Below, in pieces: positions 800-9,730 of a stretch of DNA of 9,730 nt. This stretch comes from Deltaproteobacteria bacterium (GTDB lineage: Bacteria > JAUYMQ01). The position numbers and the translations under genes are program-made. The DNA lies in the NCBI GenBank assembly GCA_030698575.1, contig JAUYMQ010000241.1, forward strand, positions 1 to 9,730, written 5' to 3'. Below the pieces are notes generated by a model. The model ran no database searches, was not told the DNA's origin, and saw nothing but the letters and a program-made list of their open reading frames with translations. The stretch's first letter is position 1, and every line of letters begins with the position of its first letter.

Positions 800-1617
800 T
801 GCCGCACAAGTTCTTCCTGGTGGCCAAGCCAGGCGCTCACTATCACCTGGGCGAGTACTGGCGCGACGAGGAGATGGAGGCCCACGTAGCGCTCTGCGAG
901 CACGAGACGACGCTGGCGCTCTACCTCGATCTGCTCCCCCGCGACGCTCCCATCCTCGACGCGGGGTGCGGCGCGGGGCGGTGGGTGATCTACCTGCGAC
1001 GACGAGGCTACGACGTGTCCGGTATGGACCGGAGCCCGGAGGGACTTGCGCGGGCGCGGGCTTTCGATCCTGGAGCAAGGCTCGTCGCCGGAGACGTGGC
1101 GGCGAAGCCCTTCCCCTCGGCGTCCTTCGGCGCGGTCCTCTCTTCGGGAGTGGTCGAACATTTTGAGGAGGGCCCCGCCCAGGCCCTCGCGGAGGCGGCC
1201 CGGGTCCTGCGCCCAGGCGGGCTCCTGCTCGTGGCGGTTCCCTACAACAGCCCGCTCCGGCGCTTCTTCTACCACCCCCTCATGGCGCTCATCCGGCGGA
1301 TGACGACTGCCGGCGGCGTCCAATGGGAATTCGCCGAGTACCGGTTCACGGCGGCGGAGATGCGCCGGATCCTCGAGCGGGCGGGATTCGCATGGGAGGG
1401 CGCGCATCCGGACGACTACAATCCGCCCAAGGCAAAGGGGATCTGGGTCGATTATAATCAGCTACTCGGCAGGCCCGGGCGGATGTGGGAGCTGAACGCG
1501 GCGGGGCGAGTTCTGCAGCGGGTCCTGAACGCGCTCTCCCCGTGGCTCTCCTGCGCGGGTGTCCTGTGCGTGGCGAGGAAGGCCGACCCCAGTTCCCCCC
1601 ACCCGGTCCGCGATTGA
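799..1617 (+). CDS. Class I SAM-dependent methyltransferase (Methyltransf_11-like)
   Basis: A 272-residue cytoplasmic methyltransferase with a Rossmann-fold SAM site. Seen: motif I ILDAGCGAG at residues 52-60, an acidic ribose-binding Asp77 in GMDRS at the end of strand 2, Asp99 in VAGDV beside the adenine pocket, VVEHF at 119-123, and RVLRPGG at 135-141, followed by VAVPYN. A C-terminal segment of about 120 residues, rich in Arg and aromatic residues, probably shapes the acceptor site. The frame is open further upstream, but the ATG at 799 is chosen because it overlaps the preceding stop (TGATG) and because the upstream translation is out-of-frame glycosyltransferase. No strong Shine-Dalgarno precedes it, so translation probably depends on coupling. 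Lying between two GT2 genes, it plausibly O-methylates a sugar or caps a glycan; that is inference. Quinone or other small-molecule methylation cannot be excluded by fold alone. Confidence 0.9.
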   Translation: MPHKFFLVAKPGAHYHLGEYWRDEEMEAHVALCEHETTLALYLDLLPRDAPILDAGCGAGRWVIYLRRRGYDVSGMDRSPEGLARARAFDPGARLVAGDVAAKPFPSASFGAVLSSGVVEHFEEGPAQALAEAARVLRPGGLLLVAVPYNSPLRRFFYHPLMALIRRMTTAGGVQWEFAEYRFTAAEMRRILERAGFAWEGAHPDDYNPPKAKGIWVDYNQLLGRPGRMWELNAAGRVLQRVLNALSPWLSCAGVLCVARKADPSSPHPVRD

Positions 1618-2642
1618 TGCGAACGCCTCTGCCTCTCGTCTCCGTGATCATACCGACCTGGAACCGGCGGGATCTGCTGGGCGAGTGCCTCCGCGGGCTC
1701 AAGGGCCAGACCTACGAGCGCTTCGAGGTGATCGTCGTGGACAACGGCTCGAGCGACGGCTCGCTGGACGAGGCGCGCGCAATCTGGGGCGAGCAGGGGC
1801 TCTACCTGCGGAACGATCGGAACCTGGGCTACGCGCGCGCGGTCAATCAGGGGTTCGAGGCCTCCGGCAGCGATTACGTGGCCACCCTCAACAACGACGC
1901 GGTTCCCGAGCCGGGTTGGCTGGCGGCGCTCGTCGAGGCGGCGGAGGCAAGTCCAGAGGTGGGGATGGTGGCCTCGAAGATTGTGGATCATGACGATCCC
2001 CACGTCATCGACGGCACGGGGCTTCTGATCTATCCCGACGGCTCCAGCCGCGCGCGGGGGAGGCTCGAGCGAGACGAGGGGCAGTACGACGATGTCACCG
2101 AAGCCCTGCTCCCCTCCGGCGCGGCCGCGCTCTACCGGCGCCGGATGCTTCAGGAAATCGGCCACCATGACGAAAACTTCTTCGCTTATTGTGAAGACAC
2201 CGATCTCGGTCTTCGCGGGCGCCTTGCGGGGTGGAAGTGCGCCTTTGCGCCAAAGGCCGTCGTGAGGCATCGCTACTCCGCTTCGACCGGAGGATACTCG
2301 GAAAGCAAAGCCTTCCTGGTCGAGCGGAACCGCCTCTGGGTGGCGGTCAAGAATTTTCCGGTGGGGCGGCTGCTGCTGACGCCCTTCTACACGCTCGACC
2401 GTTACGCGTTCCAGGCCTGGGCAGCGCTTTCCGGCCGTGGCGCCGCGGGGCGCTTCGCGCGCGAGAACTCGTCCGGGCGCCTGATGGTGCTGCTTCTGCG
2501 CGCGCAGTGGGCGGGCCTCCGGGGCCTGCCGCGGGCGCTTCGGGCGCGCCGCCAAGTTCGCGTTGCGGTGCCGCCCGAGGAGATCGCGCGATGGTTCCGG
2601 GAGTTCGGCATCGAGGCGCGGGAGCTGGCGTTCAAGGAATGA
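1617..2642 (+). CDS. Family 2 glycosyltransferase, rhamnosyltransferase-like
   Basis: A complete 341-residue GT-A fold enzyme, probably adding a deoxyhexose or similar sugar to a lipid-linked glycan on the cytoplasmic side. Seen: VSVIIPTWNR near residues 8-17, VVDNGSSDGS at 40-49 for nucleotide binding, NLGYARAVNQG at 69-79, the metal-binding DXD-equivalent NND at 92-94, LLPSGAAALYRR before the acceptor helix, FAYCEDTDL at 189-197 with the catalytic pair Glu193-Asp194, and VVRHRYS with His218. A basic tail of about 100 residues with amphipathic segments probably sits on the membrane. The ATG at 1617 overlaps the methyltransferase stop (TGATG) and is followed directly by the first strand of the fold; the frame is open further upstream, but that translation is not glycosyltransferase-like. 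The same motif order as in the partial gene at the left edge suggests duplication and divergence, with the two perhaps adding successive residues. Sugar specificity is unknown. Confidence 0.93.
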   Translation: MRTPLPLVSVIIPTWNRRDLLGECLRGLKGQTYERFEVIVVDNGSSDGSLDEARAIWGEQGLYLRNDRNLGYARAVNQGFEASGSDYVATLNNDAVPEPGWLAALVEAAEASPEVGMVASKIVDHDDPHVIDGTGLLIYPDGSSRARGRLERDEGQYDDVTEALLPSGAAALYRRRMLQEIGHHDENFFAYCEDTDLGLRGRLAGWKCAFAPKAVVRHRYSASTGGYSESKAFLVERNRLWVAVKNFPVGRLLLTPFYTLDRYAFQAWAALSGRGAAGRFARENSSGRLMVLLLRAQWAGLRGLPRALRARRQVRVAVPPEEIARWFREFGIEARELAFKE

Positions 2643-2674
2643 ACCCATCGGACAATCTGGAGAGCCGCTCATGA
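2639..2674 (+). CDS. Possible 11-codon translational-coupling mini-ORF
   Basis: The ATG at 2639 overlaps the TGA of the upstream GT2 (ATGA at 2639-2642). The 11-residue frame (MNPSDNLESRS) ends at a TGA overlapping the ATG of the next gene (ATGA at 2671-2674). It exactly fills the 28-base gap between the two cistrons. The GGAGAG that serves the next gene lies inside it. Its own start has only AAGGA immediately upstream with no usable spacing, so translation would depend on reinitiation. The peptide itself is unlikely to have a function. The double overlap may be chance, but a similar arrangement recurs at 3787-3894. Confidence 0.3.
   Translation: MNPSDNLESRS
2659..2664 (+). promoter_or_regulatory. 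Ribosome binding site for the DPMS-like GT2
   Basis: GGAGAG lies 6 bases before the ATG at 2671 (core GGAG spaced 8). It decides this start over the in-frame ATG at 2683, which has no comparable site. Confidence 0.6.
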
Positions 2675-3432
2675 ATCGCGCCATGACGAGCAGGGCCGAG
2701 GGGCTGGTCGTCGTTCCCGCGTTCAACGAGGCGGCGACGGTCGGCCGGGTGATCGATGAAGTGCGCCGCCACGCGCCCTCGGCGGACATTCTCGTCGTGG
2801 ACGACTGTTCGGCGGACGGCACGCGCGCCGCGGCGCTGAAGGCCGGCGCGCTCATTCTCACGCATGCCATCAACCTGGGCGACGGCGCCGCGCGGCAAAC
2901 GGGCTTCCGATATGCACGTTCGAAGAGATACCGCTGGGTGGTGACCGTCGATGGCGACGGGCAGCACGATCCGCGCTCGATTGCCGACATCGTCGGCGTC
3001 CTCGAGCGGGGCGAGGCCGATGTCGTCATCGGTTCGCGATTCATGCCGGGCGCCTCGGGTCAGACGTACCGCGCCCCCCTGGATCGGCGGCTCGGAATGA
3101 TGTTCTTCTCTCACGTCGCCTCGGCGCTCATCCGCCAGCGGGTCCACGACACAACCTCCGGCTACCGCGGCATGAGCGAACGCGCCATCGCGCTATTCTC
3201 CACGAACTGGTTCCCGCAGACCTTCCCCGACGCTGATCTGATCGTCATTACCCATCGTGCCGGGCTGCGGATCGCGGAGATTCCCGCGCACTTCCGCGAG
3301 GACGAATCGGGCCGCTCGATCCATTCGGGAATCACGCCGGTGTACTACGTCTTCAAGATGTGCCTGTCGCTTTTCGTTACGATGCTCCGCCGCGCGCCCC
3401 GGTGGGAGGAGGTAGAGCCCCATGGATCCTAG
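2671..3432 (+). CDS. Polyprenyl-phosphate glycosyltransferase, dolichyl-phosphate mannose synthase-like (GT2)
   Basis: Probably transfers a hexose from a nucleotide sugar to polyprenyl phosphate, giving the lipid-linked monosaccharide donor used by GT-C enzymes outside the membrane. The protein has 253 residues. Seen: VVVPAFNEA at 13-21, VVDDCSADGT at 42-51, NLGDGAARQTG at 68-78, the metal-binding DGDGQHDP at 94-101, GSRF at 121-124, DTTSGYR at 160-166 (acceptor-side motif of the family), and FREDESGRS at 208-216. It has no clear C-terminal membrane anchor, only a hydrophobic stretch near 223-238, so it resembles the DPM1-type soluble or peripheral enzymes. The start is supported by GGAGAG; upstream in-frame residues do not look like GT2. 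Its 3' end overlaps the DUF2304 gene by 11 bases, and DUF2304 is a frequent neighbour of such enzymes, probably as a membrane partner. Mannose is the usual sugar of the family, but glucose or others are possible. Confidence 0.92.
   Translation: MNRAMTSRAEGLVVVPAFNEAATVGRVIDEVRRHAPSADILVVDDCSADGTRAAALKAGALILTHAINLGDGAARQTGFRYARSKRYRWVVTVDGDGQHDPRSIADIVGVLERGEADVVIGSRFMPGASGQTYRAPLDRRLGMMFFSHVASALIRQRVHDTTSGYRGMSERAIALFSTNWFPQTFPDADLIVITHRAGLRIAEIPAHFREDESGRSIHSGITPVYYVFKMCLSLFVTMLRRAPRWEEVEPHGS
3405..3412 (+). promoter_or_regulatory. Strong ribosome binding site for the DUF2304 gene
   Basis: GGAGGAGG lies 9 bases before the ATG at 3422, inside the end of the preceding gene. It is the best Shine-Dalgarno match in the plus-strand block and supports a start that overlaps the upstream gene by 11 bases. 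Confidence 0.75.
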
Positions 3433-3790
3433 GCTTCGCGCGTTTTCGATACTCATCGCCGCGCTCATCGCGGTGTACGTTGTGAACGCCGTCCGTTCCC
3501 GGAGGCTCCGCGAGGAGTATTCCTTCCTCTGGCTGCTGATCGCGGGAGCGCTGCTCGCCATCACCCTCTGGGACGCGCCGCTCGAGATCCTCACGCAGGC
3601 CCTGGGGGGCGTGCTTCCGGCCAACATCCTATTTTTCGCCGGACTGGTCTTCCTGGTCGTGGTGAGCCTTTTCTACTCCATCCGGATCAGCGAGTTGAAC
3701 AACCAGGTTAAAGTGCTGGCGCAAGAACTGGCCCTGCTGCGCCTCGTCGTCGAACGGCATCACGGCCCCGGAGAGGGGCCCGCCGCGTGA
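3422..3790 (+). CDS. DUF2304 family small membrane protein
   Basis: A 122-residue inner-membrane protein matching the DUF2304 pattern. TM1 spans about 7-24, followed by a basic turn RSRRLR (25-30) and the family-like EEYSFLWLL (31-39) leading into TM2 (about 34-51). TM3 spans about 67-87. A charged, probably coiled-coil segment follows (about 88-113, ISELNNQVKVLAQELALLR), ending in a short Gly/Pro tail. Family members are typically encoded beside polyprenyl-phosphate GT2 genes. As the preceding GT2 lacks its own membrane anchor, this protein may recruit or stabilise it at the membrane. That role is inferred from context; no catalytic residues are evident. The start is fixed by GGAGGAGG and an 11-base overlap with the GT2. 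Its TGA overlaps a GTG that opens a 35-codon frame (GTGA at 3787-3790). Confidence 0.85.
   Translation: MDPRLRAFSILIAALIAVYVVNAVRSRRLREEYSFLWLLIAGALLAITLWDAPLEILTQALGGVLPANILFFAGLVFLVVVSLFYSIRISELNNQVKVLAQELALLRLVVERHHGPGEGPAA
3770..3778 (+). promoter_or_regulatory. Ribosome binding site for the 35-codon ORF
   Basis: GGAGAGGGG lies 8 bases before the GTG at 3787, within the last codons of the DUF2304 gene. Good strength and spacing support real initiation at this GTG. The Gly/Pro-rich tail encoded here could also produce such a run by chance. Confidence 0.5.
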
Positions 3791-3894
3791 GGTTACCCGT
3801 GATCTCTGCGCTTTGCATTGGCGCGACCGCAGCCTCCGCGGCGTCGCGGCCGGAAATTATCCCGGTCGTGCCTTCACAAGGGCGGCCTGAATGA
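3787..3894 (+). CDS. Hypothetical 35-residue small protein with signal-peptide-like N-terminus
   Basis: Not recognised as a family. Reading from the GTG at 3787 gives 35 residues starting MRLPVISALCIGATAASA. That is a basic N-region (Arg2), a hydrophobic core at about 5-15, and an AxA cleavage motif (Ala16-Ser17-Ala18), leaving a mature peptide of about 17 residues rich in Pro and Val (ASRPEIIPVVPSQGRPE). It could instead stay membrane-inserted. The GTG overlaps the DUF2304 stop (GTGA) and its TGA overlaps the ATG of the membrane glycosyltransferase gene (ATGA at 3891-3894). A GGAGAGGGG ribosome site lies 8 bases upstream. Codon 3 is TTA, rare in DNA this GC-rich. It may be a small accessory subunit, a coupling leader for the large gene, or the eroded start of a longer secreted protein. 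A GTG at 3799 is a weaker alternative start. Confidence 0.45.
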   Translation: MRLPVISALCIGATAASAASRPEIIPVVPSQGRPE

Positions 3895-6800
3895 CCGGCC
3901 GGAACGCCCAGGGCCTCCTCGTCGCACTAGCCTTCACCGCGGCCGCGCTCCTCTTCTGGCAGTTCCGGGTCATAGCACCGGCCACGGAGCCGGAAGGCTT
4001 CTTCCAGACGGATTTCTACAGCCTGCTCTACCCGATGTACCACTACGGGTACGGCGAGATGCTCGCCGGCCGCGTCCCCCTCTGGAATCCCTACACGCTC
4101 GCCGGCCTTCCCTTCCTCGCCACGCTCTACACGGGGATTCTCTATCCCGGAAACTTCCTTTTCCTTCTTCTCCCCACCGCTCTCGCGATGGGGATGACGG
4201 CCGCCCTCCACTCGTTCCTCACGACGTGGTTCATGTATCTGCTCGGGCGCGAGTGGGGATGGTCGCGAATCGCCGCGGGCGTTGCCGCGCTGGCCTGGGC
4301 TTATTCACATAACTCGGTGTGGTTCTACGGGCCCCTGTGCTTCATTGCGAGCGCAGCATGGCTGCCGTTGATGCTTCTCGGGGTCCATCGAGCTACGGAA
4401 GCAGGGCGCGGGCGGAGCGGCTCGGCGCTCCTCGCCTTCGCCGGCGCCATGTCGCTGCTCGCCGGCGGCTTCCAGATCTTCGTCTACGGCGTCTACGCGC
4501 TTGCGGCCTTCGCCCTCCTTCGCCTCGCCGGAACCCTGCGGAGCAACGGGCGGGGCGCGGCTCTGAGGGCGGCGGCTTGGCTGCTTCTGGGCTCCCTCAC
4601 TGCGGCCGCTTTCGCCGCGCCCCAGATCCTCCCCACCGCCGAGCTTTCCCGCCTGACGGAGCGGAGCATCCGGGGGCTGCCGTTCGAATGGGTGGGCAAC
4701 CCCATGCAACCCGAGAGCCCCCTTTCGGATGAGCAGGCGACCGGTCTAACCGTCGTGGCGCCGACGGCGCAGGTCAAGTCGCTCTTCGCACGAGCCGTCA
4801 CCGCGCTCGCCGATCTGCGCACGCTCACCCCCCGGCGCATACCGGCCCTCTACTTTGGGATCCTTCCGCCCCTCCTCGCCGTCGCCGCCTTCTTCGGCGC
4901 GCGATGGCGCGCGGCGCTTGCGGTGTCCGCCGGCGGCCTCCTTGCCCTGCTGCTCTCGATGGGCCCTCACTTTCCCCTGTACCGTGTCTACTACGCTCTC
5001 CCCACCGGAGACTGGTTCCGGAACGCCAACCGTTTCGTGCTGCTCAGCTCGCTCGCCCTCGCGGCTCTCGTCGGAATGGGCTTCGCGAGCCTCGAAGCCT
5101 CTCCTGCCGGGCGCCGCCGGGGCCTCCGCGCAGCGCTCGTCGCCGCCATCCTCAGCATCCTTGTACTCTGGTTAGCGGGAGTTCCGGCCCGGCCGTTCCT
5201 TTGGAGCAGCGGTACGGCCGCCCTTGGCCTTCTGCTCGCGGCCGTCGCAACCGCTCGCCATCCCCGTCTCCGCAGAGCTGCAGGTCTCGGGATCCTGCTC
5301 TTCGTCTTCACAGAGTTCTGGTTGGCCTACGCAAACCCCCACTATCACCCCCAGAAGAATCCGCAGGTATTCGACGAGCACGGCGTCATGACCGCCTACC
5401 TGCGGGATAACCTGGGGAACGACCGGATTGTGATCGTGGACAACCCCTGGGGGAGCTGGGGCATTCAGCCCAAATACGGGCTGCTCCACAGGCTTCACAC
5501 GCTGAACGATTACGAGCCGCTGGTGCCGCTGAGATACAAGTTCGCCTTTTCGCTCCTCGAGAACGCGCCGTCTGACAACGTCGCTCCCTTCGACGCCAGA
5601 CTCCGACTCGACCCTGCGCGGAGCAACAAGACCGTCCTCGACATGCTCGCCGTGCGTTTCGTCGTGGTGGATCGCGACCTCTACCCGGCCTGGGACGCCG
5701 GTGCCGCCACCTTCGGTCTTCGGCGCATTTCCCTCCCCGACCGCCAGGTAAGCCTCTATGTAAACGCCTCCGCTCGCCCCCGCGCCGCCCTCATACCGCG
5801 CGCGGTGGCCGCCGCTTCGGAACGGGAAGCTACCTCGACCATTCGCGACCCTGCCTTCGATCCCGAAAAGATCGTCGTGATTGAACCCGGCGGGCCCGAA
5901 CCACCCGGTACAGCGGCGGCTGCGCCTCTGCTGTCCATCCCGCGCTGGCGGCAGGAGGCCCCCTTGACTGGCCTTCCTATGGGTGGCGAAGTCCGCTTCC
6001 TTCGTGATGACGCCGATCAAATCGAGATCGAAGCGCGCGTCCCGCCCGGCGCTCCCGCCTGGCTCGTCCTCATGGATCTCCCCTACCCCGGTTGGCGCGC
6101 CACGGTGGACGGCAACCCCGCGGCGATCCGGCCCGCAAATCTCGTGGGACGGGCGGTCGCGGTTCCGCCGGGAATTCATCGGGTGGTCTTCAGCTACGCG
6201 TCCCGCCCATTCCGGATCGGATGCTGGCTGTTCCTCGCAGCGGCCATCTCCTGGCTCGGGGTGGCGCTCTGGAACGGCACCAGCAGCGAGGGCGAGCGGC
6301 TGAAGCAGGCCGCGCGACGTCTCATCCCCTGGGCCGTCGCGGCCGCGATCCTCTGGGCGCTCTTCGCCCGCACCGGCTTCGCCGGTGTGAAGGACGCGGC
6401 GCGCGAGGCGAACTTGCTCTTGCTGTTCGGTGCAACGGTGCTCTGCACCCTTCCCATGTACGTGCTCGACGTGCTGTCGCTATCGCGCGTCATCGGCTGG
6501 TTCAACCGCCCGGTCGCCTTCATGGATCTCGCGCGCGTGAAGGCCGCCGCCTATCTGATCACCCTCGTAAACTACAACGTGGGCAGTGGCGGCATCGCCT
6601 TCTGGCTGAAGCGGCGGCACGGCGTCCCCTTTCTCGAAGCGATGGCCTCGATCCTCTTCATCAACGTCGTCGACGTGATGGTGCTGGTAGGTCTGCTGGC
6701 GATCACGCTGCCGGCGCTCGATGCCCCGGTGAACCGGGCCGTGGGCGGCGTAGTCGGCGCGGCGGTCGTGGTGTTTGCGGGACATTTCATCTACTGGCGG

Positions 6801-7235
6801 GCGGGATTCGACTTCCTCTTTCTCGGGAGGCTCCGGCGCTGGCCGATCTTCAAGAGCTTCAGCATGGCGGGGGCGGGTCATTACCTGAAACTCGCGGCCA
6901 TTCGCCTCCCCTTCGATCTCCTCTTCATTCTGAACTTCTGGATTGCGCTCATCGCATTCGACGTGAAGGCCCCCCTGGGCGTCACGCTCGCCTACGTGCC
7001 GATTATCCTCTTCGTCTCGGTCGTACCGATCACCGTGGCCGGCCTCGGTACGGTCCAGGCCGTGACGCTCTATCTGTTCCGGGATTACGGATCGGAAGCG
7101 ACGCTGCTCGCTTTCAGTCTCATGCTCACCGTCGCGCTGAGCGCCGTTCGCGCGCTCCTCGGGCTGCCCGTCTTCAGGAAGGTGTCGGTCGAGAGCTTCT
7201 CGGGCGGGAACGTAACGCAGCCAGACCGCGGGTAA
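3891..7235 (+). CDS. YfhO-type GT-C membrane protein fused to an LPG-synthase-type (flippase-like) membrane domain
   Basis: A 1114-residue multi-pass inner-membrane protein in two parts. Residues 1 to about 795 look like the YfhO family (GT-C fold, polyprenyl-phosphate-sugar dependent). TM1 spans about 10-28, followed by a first outer loop with Asp41 and PLWNPYTLAG at 63-72, many TM helices, a WFRNANRF motif at 375-382, and a periplasmic region from about 485 that ends in a beta-rich part with PGWRATVDG (733-741) before one more TM. A short basic linker (about 796-808, with ERLKQAARR) leads to the second part, about 808-1095, resembling the LPG_synthase_TM/UPF0104 family: NYNVGSGGIAFWLKRRHG near 894-911 and VPITVAGLGT at 1045-1054. 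No soluble lysyl-transferase domain follows, so lipid aminoacylation is unlikely. Inferred role: sugar transfer from a lipid-phosphate donor on the outer face, with the second domain helping flip or hold the lipid donor. The ATG overlaps the preceding small ORF's stop and has AAGGG 8 bases upstream. It closes the plus-strand block. Confidence 0.88.
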   Translation: MTGRNAQGLLVALAFTAAALLFWQFRVIAPATEPEGFFQTDFYSLLYPMYHYGYGEMLAGRVPLWNPYTLAGLPFLATLYTGILYPGNFLFLLLPTALAMGMTAALHSFLTTWFMYLLGREWGWSRIAAGVAALAWAYSHNSVWFYGPLCFIASAAWLPLMLLGVHRATEAGRGRSGSALLAFAGAMSLLAGGFQIFVYGVYALAAFALLRLAGTLRSNGRGAALRAAAWLLLGSLTAAAFAAPQILPTAELSRLTERSIRGLPFEWVGNPMQPESPLSDEQATGLTVVAPTAQVKSLFARAVTALADLRTLTPRRIPALYFGILPPLLAVAAFFGARWRAALAVSAGGLLALLLSMGPHFPLYRVYYALPTGDWFRNANRFVLLSSLALAALVGMGFASLEASPAGRRRGLRAALVAAILSILVLWLAGVPARPFLWSSGTAALGLLLAAVATARHPRLRRAAGLGILLFVFTEFWLAYANPHYHPQKNPQVFDEHGVMTAYLRDNLGNDRIVIVDNPWGSWGIQPKYGLLHRLHTLNDYEPLVPLRYKFAFSLLENAPSDNVAPFDARLRLDPARSNKTVLDMLAVRFVVVDRDLYPAWDAGAATFGLRRISLPDRQVSLYVNASARPRAALIPRAVAAASEREATSTIRDPAFDPEKIVVIEPGGPEPPGTAAAAPLLSIPRWRQEAPLTGLPMGGEVRFLRDDADQIEIEARVPPGAPAWLVLMDLPYPGWRATVDGNPAAIRPANLVGRAVAVPPGIHRVVFSYASRPFRIGCWLFLAAAISWLGVALWNGTSSEGERLKQAARRLIPWAVAAAILWALFARTGFAGVKDAAREANLLLLFGATVLCTLPMYVLDVLSLSRVIGWFNRPVAFMDLARVKAAAYLITLVNYNVGSGGIAFWLKRRHGVPFLEAMASILFINVVDVMVLVGLLAITLPALDAPVNRAVGGVVGAAVVVFAGHFIYWRAGFDFLFLGRLRRWPIFKSFSMAGAGHYLKLAAIRLPFDLLFILNFWIALIAFDVKAPLGVTLAYVPIILFVSVVPITVAGLGTVQAVTLYLFRDYGSEATLLAFSLMLTVALSAVRALLGLPVFRKVSVESFSGGNVTQPDRG

Positions 7236-7246
7236 ATCGAGGGCGA

Positions 7247-7294
7247 CGAGCAGTAAAAGGTCACTCGACGTAGCCGAGGGATCGCAACTGCTCG
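7247..7294. repeat. Inverted repeat at the convergent gene ends
   Basis: CGAGCAGT (7247-7254) is matched by its perfect complement ACTGCTCG (7287-7294) across a 32-base loop. The loop holds a smaller CTCG/CGAG pair (7264-7267 and 7275-7278). It lies just after the plus-strand stop (TAA, 7233-7235) and covers the last codons of the minus-strand gene. It could form a hairpin in both converging transcripts. No T-run follows on either strand, so it is not a classical intrinsic terminator, and arms this short could occur by chance. The 25-base gap 7236-7260 holds nothing else recognisable. Confidence 0.3.
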
Positions 7295-8673
7295 AGTGTC
7301 TTCGGTTGGACTCCCTCCGGCGCCGCCCGTCGGGCCGGTGGCTTCAGGCCCGCCCGCGCGTCGTCGAGGAGGGAAAGCATCTCCCTCTCGAGCCGCCCGT
7401 CGGCCAGGTTGCGCAGCTCGCCCGGGTCCTCGTCCAGCCGGTAGAGTTCCACCTCCCCCCGATCGGATTGGATGATCTTCCAGGGCCAGCGGATGGCCGC
7501 CCTGAGATCGCGATCGAAGCGCGGCCCGAAAAGCTTGATGAAGAGGTTGTCGCGGTACGACTCGGCCAGAATCACCCGGAGGGCGCCCACGGGCATGCCG
7601 TCGACGCCCTCCGGGAGAGTCAGGCCCGTCTCGGCGGAGACGAGGGGCAAAAGATCGACCACGGAAATCAACGACGAGTCGCTCTCGCCGGCGCGCCTTC
7701 CTCCTGGATAGCGAATGATGAGCGGAACGTGGATCACCTCGCTGTAGAGCCACCGGCCGTGCTCCATCATCCCGTGCTCGCCGAAGCTCTCGCCGTGATC
7801 CGCCACGACGATGACGAGCGCGCCGTCGTAGCGCCCGAGCAAGCGCAAGGCCGCGAGAAGGCGACCAAACTGGGAATCCATAAAACGGATCTCGCCGTCA
7901 TAGCGGTCGATGAGGGGTCCAAGGGGGATAGCGGGAGCGGGTCCGCCCGCGCGTCCGGGCGCCGCCGGCTCGAGGGGAACTCTGGCTAGCGGCAGATCGT
8001 CGTAGCCGGGCGGCGGCTCGTAGGGGCCGTGAGGATCGAAATAGTTGACGAGCATATGGACGGGCTGCTCGCGCGGGACTTCCCGAAGCCAGGAGACGGC
8101 CCGATCAGTCAGCTCGTCGGCTGGGCGGCCCCCGATCGTCCGGATCTCCGCGTCCTTCAGATCGTACCCCTGCAGCACGCCAAAGACCGGTTCGAGAAAG
8201 GGGCCGCCCACGAACGCCGCCGTCCGGTAGCCGGCCTCCCCGAGCAACTCTGCCATCGTCAGCTGGTCCGATCCCAGCCGGTTGACCGTCATCTGCCGGA
8301 ACATCTCACCTTCCAGGGCCTCACCGAGGTTCGCGTCGGGTCGATCGACGTCGAAGTGCGCCCCGTGGCTCGTGGGGTACTTTCCGGTGACGATCGAAGC
8401 GTGGGCGGGAAGGGTCCAGGAAGCCGTGCTGTGGGCGCGGGTGAAGAGGGTCGCATCCGCCGCGAATCGATCGATGGAAGGGGTGATGTTGCGGGTGTAG
8501 CCGTAGGCGCCGATGTGGTCGGCCCTGGTCGTGTCGAGCGTGATGAGTATCACGTCCGGACGAGGGCGATCCCCGGCGCCGCATCCCGACGCCGCGATAC
8601 AGGCCAGGAGCGCCGTCAAGAACAGGCGATGCCAGCGCCCCATTCCCTTCCCCGGCACGTCCCTGCGGCCCAT
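7261..8673 (-). CDS. Sulfatase-family (alkaline phosphatase superfamily) lipoprotein
   Basis: A 470-residue exported hydrolase or transferase, probably lipid-anchored in the cell envelope. The N-terminus has basic residues, a hydrophobic core LFLTALLACIAA (17-28) and a lipobox-like ASGC with Cys31. The sulfatase fold shows in LITLDTTRADHIGAYGY (43-59; metal ligand Asp47), WTLPAHASIVTGKYP (86-100), the FDPHGPYEPP loop with His215, ADHGESFGEHG with Asp292 and His293, EHG at 304-306, and HVPLIIRYPG (315-324). The position normally holding the formylglycine Cys/Ser in CxPSR is Thr87 (TLPAH), with His91 for the Arg. A classical sulfatase is therefore doubtful; a Thr-based phosphatase or phospho-group transferase is as likely. 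It ends in LRSLGYVE, a tail often seen in this family. The ATG at 8673 is chosen for GAGGAGG 5 bases before it; the ATG at 8643, with a more usual 20-residue signal, is an alternative. Ten bases follow the upstream GT-C gene, so the two form an operon. Confidence 0.88.
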   Translation of the reverse strand: MGRRDVPGKGMGRWHRLFLTALLACIAASGCGAGDRPRPDVILITLDTTRADHIGAYGYTRNITPSIDRFAADATLFTRAHSTASWTLPAHASIVTGKYPTSHGAHFDVDRPDANLGEALEGEMFRQMTVNRLGSDQLTMAELLGEAGYRTAAFVGGPFLEPVFGVLQGYDLKDAEIRTIGGRPADELTDRAVSWLREVPREQPVHMLVNYFDPHGPYEPPPGYDDLPLARVPLEPAAPGRAGGPAPAIPLGPLIDRYDGEIRFMDSQFGRLLAALRLLGRYDGALVIVVADHGESFGEHGMMEHGRWLYSEVIHVPLIIRYPGGRRAGESDSSLISVVDLLPLVSAETGLTLPEGVDGMPVGALRVILAESYRDNLFIKLFGPRFDRDLRAAIRWPWKIIQSDRGEVELYRLDEDPGELRNLADGRLEREMLSLLDDARAGLKPPARRAAPEGVQPKTLEQLRSLGYVE

Positions 8674-8678
8674 GCACG

Positions 8679-8685
8679 CCTCCTC
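8679..8685 (-). promoter_or_regulatory. Ribosome binding site of the sulfatase-family gene
   Basis: On the minus strand GAGGAGG is followed by 5 bases and the ATG at 8673. It overlaps the TGA of the upstream GT-C gene (TGAGGAGG), so the two genes are probably translationally coupled. It favours this ATG over the inner one at 8643, and over in-frame starts as far up as 8766 that would overlap the upstream gene by over 80 bases. Confidence 0.7.
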
Positions 8686-9730
8686 AGCCCCGCCTCGCCC
8701 AGGGTCCGGGCGGCGCGTTGCCGGCGCCATCCGGATCGAGGATCGGCTCGGCGAAGACCAGGACACCGTAGAGCAAGATCGGAAGAATCTGCAAGAAAGT
8801 TCGATTCACCACCGTGCCGTTGACCAGCCAGAGATAAGCGCCTCCCACCCCGTAGAGATAGGCGAAGGTCGCGAGCAACGCCCCGCCGTAGAGCGCCAGC
8901 GGGAGATCCTCCCCGCGTCCGGCGCGCAAGGCCAGCAGCGGAAAGGCCATCGCGACGAGTGTGCCCGCCAGCATCCAGTTGTTGAACCCCCAGAAAAAGT
9001 GATCGACGAGCGGCCCGGCGATCTCGCCCATGCGGTTGCCCGGAACGAGATTCCCCCAGACGGCCGCAAGGACCGGCGGTCCCTCGGTACCGTAGCGGGC
9101 CTCGAGCAGGAAGATCGCGGCCAGGCCCAGGGCAGCGGCTAAAGTTGCAACGCCCGCTATCGCGGCGGGCCTCACGAGACCCCGGCGGACGGCCACCGCG
9201 GCGCCCATGCAGAACAGCGCGATCGGAAGATAAGTCACACCCTCGAGCTTGATCGCGGGGAGGCAGAGCGAGAAGACGATTGCGAGCCGCAGGTCGTTCG
9301 CTCCTCCCTCGCGCGCGTACCGGTGCAGGAAGATCCCCGCCGCAGTGAGATAGAGGGCCATCGGAAGATCTGCGTACCCGGCGAGCGCGGCATGGGTCAG
9401 AAAGAGCGGGAAGGCCGACAGCAGGTAGACGCCCACGAGCGACAGCGATCGCGACACGAGCCGGCGAAGACCCGCGTGAAAGAGAAGCAACATCGCTGCG
9501 TAGTAGTTCCACTGGGCCAGGCTTACCGCATACTCGTTCCAGCGGCCGTGAAGCATCTCGAACCAGGCAAGGACGAGCCCGGGCGCCGGAGGGTAGCCCT
9601 GCGGCAGCGCGAAACCCGCGCGGCTCCCGTCGAAGTACATCGTTTTTGCCAGAACGAGCGACACCCGGAACGCGTCCGCGCCCCGGATGAGCTCCGACAA
9701 ATTCATCACGAGGACGTAGACGAGCTTCGA
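8684..9730 (-). CDS. GT-C family membrane glycosyltransferase, PMT/ArnT-like (N-terminus outside the window)
   Basis: A multi-pass inner-membrane protein, probably moving a sugar from a polyprenyl-phosphate donor to a glycan or protein on the outer face. The frame is open to the right edge and 348 residues are visible. The ATG at 9709 has no Shine-Dalgarno and lies within the expected loop after TM1, so the real start is beyond the window. Seen, numbered from the edge: a loop with GADAF and AKTMYFDG (17-35), GYPPAPGLVLAWFE (45-58) matching the tyrosine-proline segment of GT-C/PMT enzymes, THAALAGYADLPMALYLT (112-129), AIKLEGVTYLP (159-169) with the Lys-x-Glu usual after a mid-protein helix, and about eight hydrophobic segments ending near 327. 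It ends in a short polar Pro/Gly tail. The missing N-terminus should carry the catalytic acidic residue. It is co-transcribed with the sulfatase-family lipoprotein. Family assignment rests on overall pattern; substrate is unknown. Confidence 0.8.
   Translation of the reverse strand, partial: SKLVYVLVMNLSELIRGADAFRVSLVLAKTMYFDGSRAGFALPQGYPPAPGLVLAWFEMLHGRWNEYAVSLAQWNYYAAMLLLFHAGLRRLVSRSLSLVGVYLLSAFPLFLTHAALAGYADLPMALYLTAAGIFLHRYAREGGANDLRLAIVFSLCLPAIKLEGVTYLPIALFCMGAAVAVRRGLVRPAAIAGVATLAAALGLAAIFLLEARYGTEGPPVLAAVWGNLVPGNRMGEIAGPLVDHFFWGFNNWMLAGTLVAMAFPLLALRAGRGEDLPLALYGGALLATFAYLYGVGGAYLWLVNGTVVNRTFLQILPILLYGVLVFAEPILDPDGAGNAPPGPWARRG

Follow-up and report, generated by a model that had tools for sequence, protein, structure and literature searches.

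A YfhO-type GT-C protein fused to an MprF-type flippase-like domain, encoded beside a polyprenyl-phosphate-type glycosyltransferase gene

The fusion gene and its two halves

The window analyzed here is a whole contig of 9,730 nucleotides (JAUYMQ010000241.1) from the metagenome-assembled genome of a Deltaproteobacteria bacterium (GCA_030698575.1; 4.13 Mb, 653 contigs, 91.6% complete, 4.6% contaminated). It carries two glycosyltransferase family 2 (GT2) genes, a gene for a DUF2304 protein and, downstream of these, a gene in which a YfhO-type GT-C enzyme is joined to a domain of the kind found in the flippase MprF (Table 1). The frame of this last gene opens with ATG and runs through 1114 codons with zero internal stops, as a first-pass annotation of this DNA had claimed. 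The two families which that annotation expected, PF09586 (YfhO) and PF03706 (LPG_synthase_TM), are the sole Pfam families in the 1114-residue protein, and both score above their curated cut-offs (gathering scores of 28.5 and 33.4 bits, respectively).

The Pfam cover of the YfhO half is patchy. PF09586 scores 35.3 bits on the whole protein, slightly less than on residues 1–800 alone, and matches in two stretches, the better of which aligns residues 730–778 with profile positions 783–832 of 835. Full-length stand-alone YfhO proteins from other genomes align across all of residues 1–800 with 25–32% identity and stop at the linker position with a short basic tail, such that the half is complete, as first annotated, including its PGWRATVDG region. 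That region is kept along with a PLWNP motif and Asp41, an acidic residue of the first outer loop that lies within the sequence QTDF. Asp41 is invariant among the four closest YfhO proteins and is a candidate catalytic residue of the GT-C part.

The C-terminal half is covered by nearly the whole PF03706 profile. The score on the whole protein is 51.5 bits (residues 813–1091 on profile positions 4–302 of 302), and residues 806–1114 alone score 57.1 bits over the same profile positions. Stand-alone PF03706 proteins begin at the linker and align from N to C terminus with the part from about residue 806, and the earlier description of a complete LPG_synthase_TM/UPF0104-like part therefore holds. 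The TIGR00374 flippase-like model gives 13.4 bits, below its cut-off of 43.2 bits, and relative to that model the C-terminal half is, to judge by the score, a divergent branch. In sequence searches, no Protein Data Bank (PDB) chain matched either half; MprF was found only through fold comparison. The predicted structure of the C-terminal half (mean predicted local distance difference test score of 93.3) does not match generic membrane proteins only, the outcome that the first-pass annotation named as counting against its proposal, but aligns with six MprF entries over 284–294 residues (Z scores of 20.8–22.5, root-mean-square deviations of 3.6–4.2); the next-best fold match has a Z score of 5.5. 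The range of MprF entry 7duw that is matched is 24–345, and Subdomain 1 of MprF, which contains the inner lipid cavity, spans Leu24–Arg325 (PMC8131360). As modeled, the C-terminal half folds like Subdomain 1 of the MprF flippase.

A conserved loop, PITVAGLGTVQA, lies at residues 1046–1057 and carries a glutamine in 21 of 23 relatives; in the fusion protein this residue, Gln1056, falls at the place of MprF Glu280, a correspondence mapped by motif only. Both the aminoacyl transferase domain and Subdomain 2 of MprF are absent, with the protein ending at residue 1114 after Subdomain 1, and the YRxxY motif of lysyl-phosphatidylglycerol (LysPG) binding is absent from residues 799–1114. Membership of the fusion protein in the MprF family was considered and dropped because the synthase domain, Subdomain 2 and YRxxY are all missing.

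The basic linker between the halves is present as first described, although its position is better given as about residues 802–810 (ERLKQAARR) than as 796–808. GC content, GC content at third codon positions and codon usage run on without notable change across the junction; the codon-usage distance between the two sides is 0.21, compared with a shuffled mean of 0.182 (standard deviation 0.019). The only start-like codons near the linker are a GTG at 6261, which has no Shine-Dalgarno-like motif, and an unusual CTG at 6300, with a GAGGG upstream at a spacing of 7 (GAGGG-N7-CTG, 6288–6302). This arrangement may be a relic of a formerly separate gene or an alternative internal start, and it could also have arisen by chance. 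In the sequence the fusion is real and coherent, and it is a single case.

Table 1. Features of the fusion gene and its upstream neighbors (positions in the window)
Feature	Position	Strand	Basis
Fusion gene (YfhO-type GT-C part and MprF-type flippase-like part)	3891..7235	+	Open frame of 1114 codons; two Pfam families above cut-offs
YfhO-type GT-C part, residues 1–800	3891..6290	+	PF09586, 36.6 bits; end-to-end alignment with stand-alone YfhO proteins
Short basic linker without ATG	6288..6320	+	Sequence and start scan
LPG_synthase_TM / MprF flippase Subdomain 1-type part, residues 806–1114	6306..7232	+	PF03706; structure model; MprF fold
DUF2304, GacJ-type small membrane activator family	3422..3790	+	PF10066, 79.7 bits
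Polyprenyl-phosphate-type GT2 (PpgS/GacI-like)	2671..3432	+	PF00535, 95.7 bits
Second GT2, rhamnosyltransferase-like, same glycan locus	1614..2642	+	PF00535, 113.6 bits

Rarity of the fusion and its nearest relatives

The C-terminal half was searched for in 386 genomes of many groups, in 395 and 365 genomes of one phylum (largely the same draw) and in 366 genomes of another, and the whole protein was searched for in nine chosen relatives; together the searches covered about 1,150 different genomes. In this collection, only the window's genome represents its phylum. No second fusion was found in the approximately 1,150 genomes, nor any other frame longer than 700 residues with a C-terminal domain of this branch. 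The first-pass annotation had asked how often the two domains are fused, and as a recurrent arrangement the fusion did not hold up, having been seen once. This statement of rarity applies to this branch of PF03706, as a single-sequence query misses distant PF03706 domains. When a four-sequence alignment of the conserved loop was scanned against a collection of 84,980 species, 24 relatives were recovered, all in frames of 313–591 residues wherever the frame was readable. Plasmids and viral contigs yielded no relatives, and a literature search, which left most subscription journals outside its reach, found nothing on a YfhO-MprF or YfhO-UPF0104 fusion.

Separate-gene relatives of both halves do occur, in other lineages. 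The two nearest relatives of the flippase half are stand-alone genes whose products are 49% identical to the fused domain, one in a 'Deltaproteobacteria' genome (JAJCZJ010000089.1, locus L172) and one in a second genome (locus L171). A maximum-likelihood tree places the window's domain with these two (support 100/99) among otherwise stand-alone proteins. Given this grouping, the simplest account is that the fusion arose in the lineage of the window, and it looks lineage-specific.

The two relatives lie in a shared gene order (L171, 1–6250; L172, 6996–14633) that consists of a divergent GT2, the PF03706 gene, a HEAT-repeat gene, a GT4, a PPM-type GT2 and a GT-C-like protein. The PPM-type GT2 is 86% identical between the two genomes, and the GT-C-like protein is 63% identical over the part present; the GT-C label of this membrane protein comes from sequence inspection, without a Pfam match. 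Read from its gene families, the neighborhood is the same functional kit as that of the window, unfused and without YfhO. The order itself could mark an unrecognized glycosylation cluster.

Neighboring genes and a proposed glycosylation module

The adjacent GT2 and DUF2304 genes reported upstream of the fusion are indeed a pair, each above its Pfam cut-off. The genome has a single DUF2304 gene, whose first bases (3422–3432) are also the last of the GT2 gene; it has a strong GGAGG-type sequence upstream and is separated from the fusion gene by about 100 bases. The best NCBIfam model for this GT2 is PpgS (NF058614), at 111.1 bits, far below the 370-bit equivalog cut-off, and the best PDB match is dolichol-phosphate mannose synthase; the PpgS score marks the enzyme as a relative of PpgS, which does not assign it a sugar. 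GT2s related to the second GT2 adjoin the stand-alone flippase-like genes of two genomes besides the window's, and its identity to the one at locus L172 is 34%.

We think it moderately probable that the locus encodes a transmembrane glycosylation module whose flipping and transfer steps are carried on one polypeptide. By family, the PpgS/GacI-like GT2, activated by the DUF2304 protein, would load one sugar onto polyprenyl phosphate at the inner leaflet. The MprF-type domain, as its fold suggests, would take the lipid-linked sugar into its inner-leaflet cavity and move the head group outward. The YfhO-type part, again by family, would then use this lipid at an outer active site, possibly including Asp41, and attach its sugar to a surface glycan. 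A make-flip-transfer module with DUF2304 had been proposed at the outset; its domains, their fusion, the neighbors and the flippase fold stand, while flipping, transfer and the substrate keep the status of a proposal. We regard this as the best reading because it fits both the GacI/GacJ/GacK/GacL scheme and the neighborhoods of the nearest stand-alone relatives.

In that scheme, from Streptococcus pyogenes, N-acetylglucosaminyl-phosphoryl-undecaprenol (GlcNAc-P-C55) is made by GacI and GacJ on the inside; GacK then flips this lipid, and GacL transfers its sugar on the outside (PMC10821137). GacJ-like proteins typically contain DUF2304 (PMC8327497), and because small membrane proteins of the GacJ type bind the GacI-type synthase and activate it (PMC10821137), we assign DUF2304 to the synthesis of the lipid-linked sugar. 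DUF2304 as the flippase was also considered and dropped, as the literature makes it an activator of GT2. The S. pyogenes system and the lactococcal WpsA/WpsB system resemble the window in having a GT2 with a DUF2304/GacJ-type activator and GT-C transfer outside (PMC8035078, PMC10821137). In S. pyogenes, however, GacK is a separate Wzx-type flippase and GacL a PMT-2-type GT-C, whereas the window has an MprF-type domain fused to a YfhO-type GT-C. The joining of neighboring parts of this pathway is not strange in itself, as GacJ-GacI fusions are known (PMC10821137).

The donors of YfhO enzymes are C55-P-sugars, which are used outside the membrane once they have been flipped (PMC7389260, PMC8035078), and the YfhO-type GT-C and this outer transfer are what the window shares with the CsbB-GtcA-YfhO systems of Bacillus subtilis, Staphylococcus aureus and Listeria (PMC8035078, PMC7389260). 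There a separate protein of the GtrA family is the proposed flippase (PMC7389260), and no DUF2304 is present; the window differs in both respects. By analogy, the fused MprF-type domain would take the place of GacK or GtcA. The PpgS-Rv3632-Rv3779 system of arabinogalactan modification in Mycobacterium and Corynebacterium is linked to the window through PpgS, the nearest curated model to its GT2. That pathway also comprises a small helper protein and a transferase that acts outside, and the literature states that its flippase has yet to be identified (PMC9671496). No fusion is described there, in contrast to the window, and PpgS/Rv3632 serves here, with GacI/GacJ and WpsA/WpsB, as a model for the GT2 and DUF2304 step.

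PF03706-type domains fused to enzymes have precedents. MprF, the LysPG synthase/flippase, shares with the window the Subdomain 1 fold and its fusion to an enzyme of a lipid pathway, but the partner in MprF is a cytoplasmic aminoacyl transferase and that in the window an outer sugar transferase. AglD of Haloferax likewise has a PF03706 domain at the C terminus of a glycosyltransferase (PMC5898192), in this case a cytoplasmic GT2 rather than an outer GT-C. In archaea, PF03706 genes neighbor GT-C, GT2 and AglD-type genes (PMC5898192). What sets the window apart from MprF and AglD is that its fused enzyme is expected to use up the lipid outside.

Several points weigh against the module as proposed. 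There is one instance of the fusion, on one metagenome-assembled contig, and its putative function is read from gene families and fold. Glycolipid flipping by stand-alone PF03706 proteins (HexF, GpgF) is only predicted, and HexF is dispensable for product formation on overexpression. The outer cavity of MprF needs Subdomain 2, which the fusion protein lacks, and the closest relatives of the flippase half do not adjoin YfhO or DUF2304. It is conceivable, but at present doubtful, that the MprF-type domain hands the polyprenyl-phosphate sugar directly to the GT-C site in the same chain, with the GT-C part replacing Subdomain 2 in the outer cavity. If such a single-chain hand-over were true, then by the logic of gene fusion this branch of PF03706 would comprise the missing flippases of those GacI/PpgS-type pathways for which none is known. 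The flippases for single sugars on polyprenyl phosphate are unsettled in several pathways. That a transfer enzyme is fused to an MprF-type domain in a locus that also encodes a PpgS-like GT2 and a member of its activator family provides genomic evidence of a link in function. The fusion singles out as flippase candidates those stand-alone PF03706 genes that lie close to genes for PPM-type GT2 and GT-C enzymes.

Alternative explanations and other nearby genes

If the fusion is real, its C-terminal domain could move a different lipid, such as a glycosyl-diacylglycerol or another phospholipid, or return spent polyprenyl phosphate inward. The predicted substrates of PF03706 proteins are diverse (LysPG for MprF, an aminohexosyl glycolipid for HexF, glucosaminyl-phosphatidylglycerol (GlcN-PG) for GpgF), and fusion to an enzyme that releases the carrier would favor carrier recycling too. 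We nevertheless consider another lipid unlikely, as by family the neighboring genes would make a polyprenyl-phosphate sugar and not a phospholipid, YRxxY is absent, and no phospholipid-modifying gene was found by Pfam in the 9,730-nt window. Somewhat less likely still is that the domain is no flippase at all and instead binds lipid or serves for docking, so as to collect or orient the donor or to anchor the GT-C to partners. Of the MprF flippase, only Subdomain 1 is present (PMC8131360), Gln1056 stands by motif at the place of Glu280, and product formation continued when HexF was lost, all of which would suit such a role. Subdomain 1, however, holds the inner lipid cavity and is the part essential for flipping in SaMprF; in RtMprF the E280Q substitution increased activity and did not abolish it; and the stand-alone relatives carry no enzyme part that they could anchor.

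An assembly or sequencing artefact, in which two adjacent genes were merged by loss of a stop, appears very improbable. The gene is on a single contig out of 653, the relatives of both halves are separate genes, and a start site may once have existed at the GAGGG-N7-CTG of the linker. The artefact would nevertheless require that a stop had been lost, together with an ATG if the second gene had a standard start, composition is continuous across the junction, and the two parts meet in frame exactly at the natural ends of both proteins.

Downstream of the fusion gene and convergent with it lies a sulfatase-family gene (PF00884) with a lipoprotein-like signal (7261–8673, minus strand). Sulfatase genes also adjoin YfhO at locus L176 and the PF03706 gene at loci L172 and L115. 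A membrane protein gene at 8684–9730 (minus strand) runs off the contig end; its product is GT-C-like by eye, with no Pfam or NCBIfam match. Elsewhere, locus L173 (4811–12191) holds three tandem YfhO genes with a PPM-type GT2 between the second and the third.

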